Assembly (NCBI GenBank): GCA_019695095.1
Contig: JAIBAQ010000048.1
Coordinates: forward strand, 1-35,506
Length of the DNA stretch: 35,506 nt
Direction of reading: 5' to 3'
Origin: Candidatus Hydrogenedentota bacterium
GTDB lineage: Bacteria; Hydrogenedentota; Hydrogenedentia; Hydrogenedentales; SLHB01
The notes below the pieces were generated by a model, which had not been told where the DNA came from, did not search any database, and saw only the letters and a program-made list of their open reading frames with translations. This document shows, piece after piece, positions 23,357 to 27,355 of the stretch. How positions within the stretch are numbered: position 1 is the first letter of the stretch; each line of letters begins with the position of its first letter. The position numbers and the translations under genes were made by a program.

Positions 23357-24205
23357 CTATTGCGCAGCTTTCGGTCCTGACTTTCCAGGAACGAAGATAT
23401 CCTTGGGCGTTAGGTTAAGCGTCTTTGCAGCTTCCAGACAATACTCGATCTGCCCCATCTTCGGATAACGGCCGTTCGATCCGAACGAGAACTTCACGCC
23501 CGCGGCTTTCGCCATTGTCAGGAACGGCATCTTCGGCAGTCTCAGTCCGCCGCAGATTTCGAGCGCCACGTCGTTCTTTACGGCAGCATCGATCACGCGC
23601 TTCATGCGCGCTTCCGTCCACAAGGCATCGTACTGCGGCATGAATGCGTCCGGCATCCACGTCGTGTTCGCGAAAATATCGATGGGGTCTTCCGTCATGC
23701 GCCGCTCGTGCCATTCCACGTAACGGTCCATGAACGATTCCGCATCTCCGAGCGCCGCGCCCGCTTCCCACAGCTTCATGCGCTGGCCGTCGGGACCCGG
23801 CATCGTCATGCCGTCGCCGAGCACATAATCGAGCCGTTTGTAAGCGGTCTTCGAAAAGCACTTCGGCCAATCCGTGTATTCGGCCTGCACGCCTTTCCAG
23901 ACGCCCTTGCCTTCCAGCATATCCGCATACGCTTCCAGTTCGGCGTCGTTGCTCAGCAGAGTGGGATACTTGTTCTCTTTCGTGCCCGCATGGTCCACGA
24001 TGCCAAATTTCACGCCGCGCTCCTTAGCGAGCGCCGCTACCGCATCGATGGTGCTGTTGTCGAGATGTACATGAAGGTCGACATGCGGAATGGATGCGTC
24101 CGCAGTCTCTGAAGTGGGTTCATTTGCCGTCGCTAACGCGGACGCGGCCAACAGTCCGCTCGAACGCGCGAGGAACTGACGTCGGGAGAGGTGTGAGTAT
24201 TTCAT
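23357..24205 (-). CDS. Tat-exported PHP-domain-like metal hydrolase
   Basis: A 282-residue protein with a twin-arginine signal, SHLSRRQFLARSSGLLAASALATA, so it is exported folded. The mature part begins HVDLHVHLD (Asp43, His45, His47), the first metal-binding motif of PHP and histidinol-phosphatase-like hydrolases. GIVDHAG supplies a further His and Asp, and DVALEICGGLRLP and VKFSFGSNGRYP correspond to late barrel strands, ending with a YCLEAAKTLNLTPKDIF helix. The reaction is not predictable; family members hydrolyse phosphoesters. The gene has no good ribosome-binding site and is followed after 122 bases by the metallophosphoesterase gene on the same strand, so an operon is possible. Confidence 0.8.
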   Translation of the reverse strand: MKYSHLSRRQFLARSSGLLAASALATANEPTSETADASIPHVDLHVHLDNSTIDAVAALAKERGVKFGIVDHAGTKENKYPTLLSNDAELEAYADMLEGKGVWKGVQAEYTDWPKCFSKTAYKRLDYVLGDGMTMPGPDGQRMKLWEAGAALGDAESFMDRYVEWHERRMTEDPIDIFANTTWMPDAFMPQYDALWTEARMKRVIDAAVKNDVALEICGGLRLPKMPFLTMAKAAGVKFSFGSNGRYPKMGQIEYCLEAAKTLNLTPKDIFVPGKSGPKAAQ

Positions 24206-24403: not shown

Positions 24404-24432
24404 TTGACGAATTGGCGATCCTGGGGTACAGT
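24404..24432 (+). promoter_or_regulatory. Promoter of the structured RNA
   Basis: TTGACG (24404-24409), a 17-base spacer and TACAGT (24427-24432). This is the best -35 in the window. The predicted start is about 24439, two bases before the closing stem of the RNA. The 198 bases upstream to the PHP gene show nothing coding. Confidence 0.75.
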
Positions 24433-24438
24433 AGGGGT

Positions 24439-24602
24439 AGAGCGACTCGCAGAATGTGGCCTTGACGGTGCCGCTTCACCTCGCGCCCCATAAGGGGCGG
24501 AGAAGGCAGTAAGCCTATGTGGGGTGGAAAAGAACGCGGGCGTCACCGCACACTCTACGAGTCGCTGAGGGGCATTGAAGTATCGCCCCTCCTTTCTTTT
24601 TG
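24439..24602 (+). ncRNA. Structured non-coding RNA with own promoter and terminator (class unknown, 6S-like at most)
   Basis: A transcription unit of about 164 bases without a plausible open frame. Its ends pair perfectly: AGCGACTCG (24441-24449) with CGAGTCGCT (24558-24566). The stem continues with AGA/TCT (24451-24453 with 24554-24556), TGTG/CACA (24455-24458 with 24549-24552), GACG/CGTC (24464-24467 with 24541-24544), CCGC/GCGG (24471-24474 with 24536-24539) and CACC/GGTG (24477-24480 with 24523-24526). Two hairpins sit at the apex: GCCCC-ATAA-GGGGC (24485-24498) and AGGC-AGTAA-GCCT (24504-24516). The terminator hairpin follows one base after the closing stem. A long rod with internal loops and an independent promoter is 6S RNA-like, but I see no sequence signature of 6S, SRP, tmRNA or RNase P RNA. 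Confidence 0.65.
24567..24602 (+). terminator. Intrinsic terminator of the structured RNA
   Basis: GAGGGGC (24567-24573) and GCCCCTC (24585-24591) form a 7-bp stem with an 11-base loop, followed by CTTTCTTTTTG. It marks the 3' end of the RNA. Confidence 0.85.
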
Positions 24603-24957
24603 TCCCACCTCAATAGGCTTCCCGCCGGCACATTGTTTTCTTGAGCCGAATCCTAAGCTGCGCTCTTTAGAAATGAACCGCGTAAGTTGGTTTCGCCCTG
24701 ACAGGGCTCCCGTTGAGCGGGGGCTGGAATCTGGAGTCTGCCGTGCCTACGGCACTCAAGAGAAAAGGCCGTCCGCTAGACTTCTGTTTCTACCGCTGAA
24801 ACCCGCGCACGCGCGGTCACCCGCTCGGAATGACAGAAGGATGAGGTTGGCCGTACACGCATCCTCCAGAACCTTCTTCCGGAGAAGCAGACGGAGCGGC
24901 AGCAAGTAACGTACAGGGCGTATTGCCCGACGCCTCGTCAAGGCTGTCCGTTTGAGC
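24603..24957. other. Non-coding spacer with small palindromes
   Basis: No credible gene is present. Short perfect palindromes occur: GCCCT-GAC-AGGGC (24695-24707) and GTGCC-TAC-GGCAC (24743-24755). A CTCGGAATGACAG phrase follows near 24825, a form often seen in dispersed intergenic repeats of environmental bacteria. Whether copies exist elsewhere in the genome cannot be told from this window. Confidence 0.4.
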
Positions 24958-25947
24958 CTATTGTGCCGTCGCTTCTTTGCCGTTCGCGCTTCCGTAGCGG
25001 TACCCGAGCAACATGAAGAATTGCAGGCCGAATATGAGGTTTGCCAACAACAAATGCGTAGGCTGTAGAACGGCGGGCATCGCAAGGTAGTAGAGAGCCG
25101 CGCCCGTCGCGATTTCGAAGAGAATGAGCGCGTTGGCCGCAATCGCGCAGACTTGAATAATTCCGTACTCGTTCGTCTCGCGAACGATCTTCATTGCAAG
25201 CGCGAAATTGACCGCGAAGACAACCATTGAAAATGTTCGATGGACGTAGAAGCCGAATCCCAGGGATTCGGCCCACAAGTAGCGCTTGTCTTCGCCAAAC
25301 AACTCAACCGCCTTATCGATGGTCTCGCGGACTTGTGTGCCCATCACCACCTGCAACAGCGACAACCCCAGCACCACCAGCATCAGCGCTTGCAGGCCTG
25401 GACTGGGCGTGACCGTGCCGAAGTGGAATACCGAGCGCTGGGCACGCACGACCACGTAGAGCAGTATCGAAACGAGCAGCAGAGCGATGACCATATGCGC
25501 GGTGATTAGGAGCGGTGTCAGATTCGACTCGACGACCTTCGCCCCGAGCCATCCTTGAAAAGCCACGAGCAGAAACGAAACAAAACTCAATACGGTGACG
25601 GTTCGGTCGGTCTGCCAATACGAGTACGAGGACACGAGCGTGAGAAAGATGAGAATGCCTATGGTCACGCCGATGAGCCTGTTAATGTATTCCGTCCATG
25701 TCTTCACGACGTTGAACGTTGTGTCCGCGTAGCCGCGCTCGGCGTAGATCTCCTGGTAGTTGGCGGGCAACTGCGATTCGTCTGTGGGCGGTATCCACTG
25801 TCCAAAACACGTGGGCCAGTCGGGACATCCCATACCGGCGCCCGAGGCGCGCACGATACCCCCGACGGCGATTAGAAAGTAGACCGCCACCACCGTCGTC
25901 AGCCCAACGATCCGAAATGCGCGCGGAGTGAAGAACGACTGAATCAT
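24958..25947 (-). CDS. ctaA: Heme A synthase (COX15/CtaA)
   Basis: An eight-span membrane enzyme of 329 residues that oxidises the C8 methyl of heme O to a formyl group, giving heme A for aa3-type cytochrome oxidases. GGIVRASGAGMGCPDWPTCFG is the family signature, with the paired Cys41 and Cys47 of the first external loop. His151 (LLITAHMVIALL), His236 (FYVHRTFSMVV) and His298 (LQPTHLLLANL) match three of the four heme-ligand histidines. The first site reads TEYINRLIG: Glu86 is kept but the usual histidine is Asn89, a variant I believe occurs in other bacterial CtaA proteins. AAGGG lies 6 bases before ATG 25947. It follows the NADP reductase gene by 34 bases and is very probably co-transcribed with it. 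No ctaB is in the window. Confidence 0.95.
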   Translation of the reverse strand: MIQSFFTPRAFRIVGLTTVVAVYFLIAVGGIVRASGAGMGCPDWPTCFGQWIPPTDESQLPANYQEIYAERGYADTTFNVVKTWTEYINRLIGVTIGILIFLTLVSSYSYWQTDRTVTVLSFVSFLLVAFQGWLGAKVVESNLTPLLITAHMVIALLLVSILLYVVVRAQRSVFHFGTVTPSPGLQALMLVVLGLSLLQVVMGTQVRETIDKAVELFGEDKRYLWAESLGFGFYVHRTFSMVVFAVNFALAMKIVRETNEYGIIQVCAIAANALILFEIATGAALYYLAMPAVLQPTHLLLANLIFGLQFFMLLGYRYGSANGKEATAQ

Positions 25948-25981: not shown

Positions 25982-27355
25982 CTAGCCCAATACCGCCAAC
26001 ATGTCCTCGACGCGCGTAAACTTCTCGCGCGGTTTACCTCTTGTCTTGCCGCGTTCGATTTCGGCCGCATCGATGCGCTGCCAATCCGCATACGACACCA
26101 CGCGCACGTTGCGTTCGCGCAGCAACGCCGCCAGCGCGTTAGTATCGGGCGTCGCGCACGGCGTCAGCGACGCGGCATCCGCCAGCATCGAGGCTACCGT
26201 TGCCTGGCTGTCGGGCTTGTTGTTGCCGATGATGCCGCTGGGGCCGCGCTTAATCCAGCCCGCCGCGTATAAGCCGGGAATAACGGCGTCTCCATCCAGA
26301 ATACGCCCATCGCGATTTGGAAACACGCCGCGCTTCGCATCAAATGGCAGGCCCGGAAACGCCGTGCCCCGGTAGCCAACGCTGCGGAATACAAGGCCGC
26401 ACGCGAGCGTCTCCATCTCGCCAGTGCCGACGGCGCGCATCTTGTGCGGCTCGCCTTCCAGGCGATTGCGCTCCAGTTTTAGCGATTCCACGCGGCCGTT
26501 GCCGGAAAGCTCAATCGGGCTCTTGAGGAAATGTACGAAGAACCGTTTCCCCTTGCCTTCGGGCGTGCGCGAAGCGAGTTCCTGCATGACCGCAAAGTTC
26601 TTTTTGGCGTGCTGGTTGTCCGGATCGTCCAACTCGGCCTGGCTTGCAGGGTCCAACACGAGGTCTTCGGGCGCGATCACCGGATGGCAGTCCACCAATT
26701 CGCCGAATTCTTTCAGTTCCGGCTGCGTGAACTTGGCTTGCACGGGGCCGCGCCGCCCGATGAGGTGCACTTCCTTGATCGCGCTCGACGCCAGCGCATC
26801 CAGCGCGTGCGCGGCGATGTCGGTCTCTTTCAATTCATCCACGGTCTTCGCGAGAATGCGGCTGACGTCCATCGCGACGTTTCCTTGTCCGATCACGACA
26901 GCGACTTCCTGCGACAGATCGAACACGCGGTCGCGGTAATCCGGGTGGCCGTTGTACCAGCCAACAAACTCCGTCGCGGTGTGGCTGCCCAGCAGGTCCT
27001 CGCCTGGAATACCAAGACGATTGTCCGATTCCGCGCCACACGAAAACAGGATCGCGTCGTAGAACCGGCGCATTTCCTCGACAGTCACGTCGCGTCCGAC
27101 CGTCACATTGCCTAAGAACGCGAATCGTTCGTGCGCGGCAATCTTGTCGTACACGCGGATGACGCTCTTGATCTTCGGATGATCCGGCGCAACACCGCCG
27201 CGAACCAGCCCGAAGGGCGTCGGAAGTCGATCGAACATATCGACTTGAATGGTCTTGTCCGACTTGAAAAGGGCTTCAGCGGCGTAGAAACCACTGGGGC
27301 CGCTGCCCACGATGGCTACGCGCAACGGTCGCACGGCGGTACCGATCTCGCTCAT
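25982..27355 (-). CDS. fprA: Ferredoxin/adrenodoxin-type NADP+ reductase
   Basis: A 457-residue FAD flavoprotein of the adrenodoxin reductase/FprA family, passing electrons from NADPH to a ferredoxin. The FAD-binding [17 protein letters not shown] (GSGPSG at 17-22), the family-specific [18 protein letters not shown], the NADP-binding [16 protein letters not shown] and the C-terminal [23 protein letters not shown] are all present. ATG 27355 is chosen because GGAG lies 6 bases upstream; the frame is open 53 codons further, but that part is not family-like. It is the first gene of a two-gene unit with ctaA, for which an adrenodoxin-type electron chain (Arh1-Yah1) is known to serve Cox15 in yeast. 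The ferredoxin itself is not in the window. Confidence 0.95.

Follow-up and report, generated by a model that had tools for sequence, protein, structure and literature searches.

Genes and repeats around the locus

The stretch of DNA analysed here, which we call the window, is contig 48 (35.5 kb) of a Hydrogenedentota genome assembly of 6.77 Mb in 405 contigs that is 95% complete. At positions 24440 to 24600 of its + strand lies a predicted RNA gene, referred to below as the window RNA. Both genes that flank it are on the − strand, and the next sizeable candidate gene on the + strand begins at 27312. The right-hand neighbour (24958 to 25947, −) lies outside the RNA, is convergent with it and encodes the heme A synthase CtaA, an assignment already made in a preliminary description of this DNA and now confirmed by a match to PF02628 (E 4e-53). 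The left-hand neighbour (23357 to 24205, −), also outside the RNA, had been called a PHP-type hydrolase. Its product was matched in 17 of 60 genomes, its own included, and contains a DLHVH motif that we take to fit a PHP or amidohydrolase enzyme; however, a Pfam search gave no match. No tRNA or tmRNA was found in the window.

Between the window RNA and ctaA, at 24682 to 24830, is a dispersed palindromic repeat with many partial copies, up to about 94% identical over 66 bases, across 1.6 Mb of this genome. In contrast to this adjoining repeat, 24440 to 24600 is present as a single copy in the genome. A sub-threshold match to Acido-Lenti-1 RNA (RF01687; 17 bits, with a cut-off of 37) at 24731 to 24756 falls inside the repeat, 130 bases downstream of the window RNA and outside it, and the window RNA has nothing in common with that class. 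A full Acido-Lenti-1 match lies elsewhere, at L092:42-88.

Promoter, rod and terminator in exact register

The preliminary description had proposed a stand-alone structured RNA with its own promoter and terminator, and the signals, their register and the stability of the fold support this. A promoter scan recovered the claimed promoter on the + strand, with a −35 box TTGACG at 24404 to 24409 and, after a 17-nt spacer, a −10 box TACAGT at 24427 to 24432. It is the sole promoter-like site between 23900 and 25000, where shuffled sequence leads one to expect 0.3. Eight bases past the −10 box begins the closing stem, in which fold predictions pair AGCGACTCG (24441 to 24449) with CGAGTCGCT (24558 to 24566) in nine perfect pairs, as described earlier, at pairing probabilities of 0.95 to 1.0. 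The closing stem is the foot of a rod that has roughly 90 of its 128 bases in pairs and is interrupted by small internal loops and, on its 3′ side, by one unpaired 7-nt bulge (24529 to 24535). At the apex, the two hairpins noted before were again predicted: GCCCC-AUAA-GGGGC at 24485 to 24498 (arms 24485 to 24489 and 24494 to 24498; pairing probability 0.98) and AGGC-AGUAA-GCCU at 24504 to 24516 (arms 24504 to 24507 and 24513 to 24516; 0.91 to 0.98).

From sequence and fold (−13.5 kcal/mol), an intrinsic terminator occupies 24567 to 24602, with a 7-bp stem (GAGGGGC at 24567 to 24573, GCCCCTC at 24585 to 24591), an 11-nt loop and then CTTTCTTTTTG. The terminator is thus present as claimed, but it stands one base after the closing stem only if counted from AGGGGC; otherwise it abuts that stem directly. 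A terminator scanner missed it because its loop exceeds the 8-nt maximum of the scanner, and we count the length of the loop against our preferred explanation. The start of the stem lies in exact register with both promoter and terminator; this arrangement, together with the folds, the G+C-corrected rank and the design scan given below, points to a predicted non-coding transcript of about 160 nt.

An open reading frame for 130 amino acids beginning with ATG (24517 to 24909) overlaps the 3′ half of the RNA. We rejected it as coding: it has no Pfam match, its third-position G+C is 0.59 compared with 0.71 to 0.75 in the real neighbouring genes, and it would run through the terminator. The earlier statement that no sensible frame is present holds.

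The fold is far more stable than chance

Positions 24438 to 24567 fold at −64.9 kcal/mol, as against −45.5 ± 3.8 in dinucleotide shuffles (z −5.2; none of 200 shuffles reached it), and a separate fold test gave z −4.9. When the closing stem was constrained to form, the interior was still 12 kcal/mol more stable than shuffles. For its G+C, the window RNA is the most stable 160-nt stretch on either strand of the 35.5 kb. We also scanned 1.62 of the 6.77 Mb with a descriptor of the design: a promoter, a stem of at least 8 pairs starting 4 to 10 bases after the −10 box, the partner arm 85 to 190 bases on and a T-run within 45 bases. Twenty loci passed, mostly weak ones; the window RNA ranked above all the others and had the greatest folding stability per base.

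Two apical hairpins also formed in 115 of 300 shuffles (38%), so the forked apex on its own is uninformative. A weakness of the case is that the reverse strand folds equally well or slightly better (−69.4 versus −64.9 kcal/mol, with three G-U pairs each), so only the promoter and terminator indicate the strand.

The window RNA falls in no known class

Rfam 15 gave no match in the whole window at the gathering score and, when the limit was relaxed to E 10, no noteworthy match near the window RNA, which bears out the earlier remark that no Rfam class could be recognised. The preliminary description had named a 6S-like regulator as the nearest shape. The window RNA does resemble 6S RNA (RF00013) in its size class and its end-to-end closing helix. 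However, a search reaching E 10 gave no 6S match in its stretch, and it lacks the large central bubble of 6S RNA. The genome carries a good 6S match of its own, above the cut-off at 71.1 bits, on contig 78 (G000:C78:20146-20329, −; L002:1501-1684), and the window RNA is therefore not its 6S RNA; we reject 6S as its identity.

A cis-acting leader or riboswitch was rejected too, since no co-directional gene follows the RNA and both neighbours sit on the − strand, in agreement with the earlier view that it is not an obvious leader. We also looked for Hfq (PF17209), which base-pairing small RNAs of the Hfq-dependent kind would need, and did not find it in this genome, an absence that is not certain at 95% completeness; a control search found Hfq in 5 of 14 reference genomes.

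Homologues of the window RNA were not found in relatives

A DNA search of 60 relatives matched the window RNA only to itself. A covariance model built from the single sequence (R1) gave nothing credible over 68 genomes of the phylum, nor over the family with looser filters. Its hit at 0.7 in G039 proved to be a low-complexity stretch, C-rich and G-rich, and its hits beside ctaA and the hydrolase gene in G004 and G020 were palindromic repeats of another kind than the window RNA. By synteny, in three other relatives with ctaA (G018, G021 and G009) different genes follow directly and an RNA of this kind is absent, and plasmids, phages and viral contigs held no homologue. The genomes searched included no second one from the organism's own genus. 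As no homologue was found, the window RNA is a single sequence, an orphan and not yet a family, which sets aside for now the suggestion that it may found a new one. As far as can be seen, the gene is confined to its lineage.

Separately, nearly perfect and very long palindromes (for example, ACACAGGCGAGGGCGCCTGTGCCACACG with its complement) lie beside ctaA or the hydrolase gene in genus-5 relatives (L008:1240-1400, L010:1097-1270, L034:1100-1330 and L033:1576-1659); two of these contigs end within ctaA.

A phylum-wide structured RNA found beside ctaA

In genome G024, the region 3′ of ctaA holds a different RNA: a 116-nt rod, convergent with ctaA as the window RNA is, with a promoter TTGCAA-17-TATCTT that ends 7 bases before the foot of the stem and a T-run after it. 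G004 has a copy that is 83% identical and contains three compensatory pairs. A model built from these two RNAs (R2) picked up the same type in further genera. In an alignment of 13 sequences made without structure (A4), seventeen pairs were changed on both sides, as compared with 8.8 ± 1.8 in shuffles, and 86% of its cells were paired, a share that fell below 50% once the alignment was slid by one column or more.

The model derived from the 13 sequences (R3) found 35 of 68 Hydrogenedentota genomes at E ≤ 0.005, with one strong locus each (L088, L084, L093, L094, L090, L095, L096, L079, L097, L082, L098 and others), and had no match in the approximately 320 genomes from outside the phylum among the 386 searched. 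When 32 rows were aligned by fitting them to the model, changes on both sides appeared at 27 of 35 pairs. The consensus contains, in this order, GCGGAAGCYGCG-UAG-CGAGAG, hairpin 1 GAUCC/GGAUC, hairpin 2 GGGC/GCCC and CUCUCG-A-CGCNGCUUCCGC followed by a U-tract. Members are about 125 nt long and have their own promoter, which is clear in the family of the window organism, and a T-run, while their neighbouring genes vary. Rfam 15 recognises none of them. The R3 RNA, well supported by covariation, can be regarded as a solid new-family candidate.

The window organism has a likely member on contig 7 (G000:C7:26041-26163; L114:1501-1623, −). It scores 25.1 bits (E 0.02) and is backed by a family promoter in register and by a convergent CBS-domain gene that G014 and G006 have in common.

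Relation of the window RNA to the R3 family

The window RNA and the R3 RNAs are alike in being stand-alone, in having a promoter 7 bases before a rod that begins at +1 and in ending with a T-run or terminator. Both also have two apical hairpins, an arrangement that shuffled sequence often gives too. Their promoters are similar as well. Among 1405 promoter-like sites in 1.62 Mb, that of the window RNA is the closest to that of the contig 7 member, with 20 of 34 non-hexamer positions identical and GCGATCC common to both spacers. A weight matrix of R3-family promoters taken only from other genomes ranked it third in 3.2 million positions (1.62 Mb); however, a higher rank went to the promoter that serves an ordinary pilin-like gene, and this type of promoter is therefore partly generic.

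The bodies, on the other hand, are unlike. Neither R2 nor R3 matched the body of the window RNA, and on this stretch the terminator was the only part that scored with R3 (9.3 bits, E 0.7). Similarity to the contig 7 copy was no better than chance, as 482 of 500 shuffles reached it, and the near-invariant R3 core, CGUAGCGAGAG paired with CUCUCGACG, is absent. The models give no match and the genome's likely member lies on contig 7; the window RNA is thus no orthologue, and judged by its sequence it is not a demonstrable member of the family.

Discussion

We consider it very probable that the window RNA is a real RNA gene. Our best overall explanation, held at about even confidence, is a stand-alone, lineage-confined non-coding RNA gene whose predicted transcript most likely binds a protein. 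RNA polymerase would start at the foot of the long imperfect rod, about 8 bases past the −10 box, produce a rod of about 128 nt with two short hairpins at its forked end, and stop at the abutting terminator, releasing a discrete RNA of about 160 nt. This RNA may then bind a protein, as a scaffold or a decoy. We favour protein binding because so many of the rod bases are paired, leaving little single strand for pairing with mRNA, and because Hfq was not found; given a real gene, we put this mode of action at an even chance. Transcription and function are both inferred, with less confidence in protein action than in the transcript, and the protein partner is a prediction.

A tentative alternative is that the window RNA is a far-diverged paralogue of the R3 RNA, in which an old duplication placed a copy 3′ of ctaA and kept the promoter type and layout while the body changed beyond recognition. 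The R3 member of G024, with the same place and orientation, the ranks of the promoter and the common layout all speak for it. The missing core and the chance-level similarity of the bodies speak against it, as do the higher-ranking pilin gene promoter and the frequency of a forked apex in shuffles. Somewhat more doubtful is a regulatory small RNA that pairs with its targets independently of Hfq, with its seed in the bulge, in a GGAGA junction or in the hairpin loops. Such a role would suit an RNA with a promoter and terminator of its own, a U-rich tail and purine-rich unpaired stretches, but little of the sequence is unpaired and Hfq was not detected.

It is improbable that the locus is instead a DNA palindrome or a decayed mobile element, MITE-like or REP-like, that mimics an RNA gene. 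Hydrogenedentota genomes are rich in palindromic repeats, one of which shares this intergenic region; long palindromes lie upstream of ctaA in G004 and G020; and both strands of the window RNA fold well. An element of this kind is at odds with the lack of a second copy in the genome, with a directional promoter and terminator that flank the rod in exact register and with the first place in 1.62 Mb for the design. A second 6S RNA is very unlikely: it would account for the overall length and end-to-end pairing, but not for the absent bubble, the failed 6S search or the 6S RNA already encoded on contig 78.

Taken alone, the window RNA that we interpret as a lineage-confined RNA gene is another orphan among candidate structured RNAs. 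It matters more through the R3 RNA, which was reached from its neighbour ctaA; our literature searches found no work on RNA motifs for the phylum Hydrogenedentota. If the paralogue explanation were true, an undescribed phylum-wide RNA that occurs in single copy would have spun off a second RNA with a wholly changed body while promoter, layout and place were kept. The window RNA indicates that Hydrogenedentota contain additional structured RNAs absent from every catalogue.
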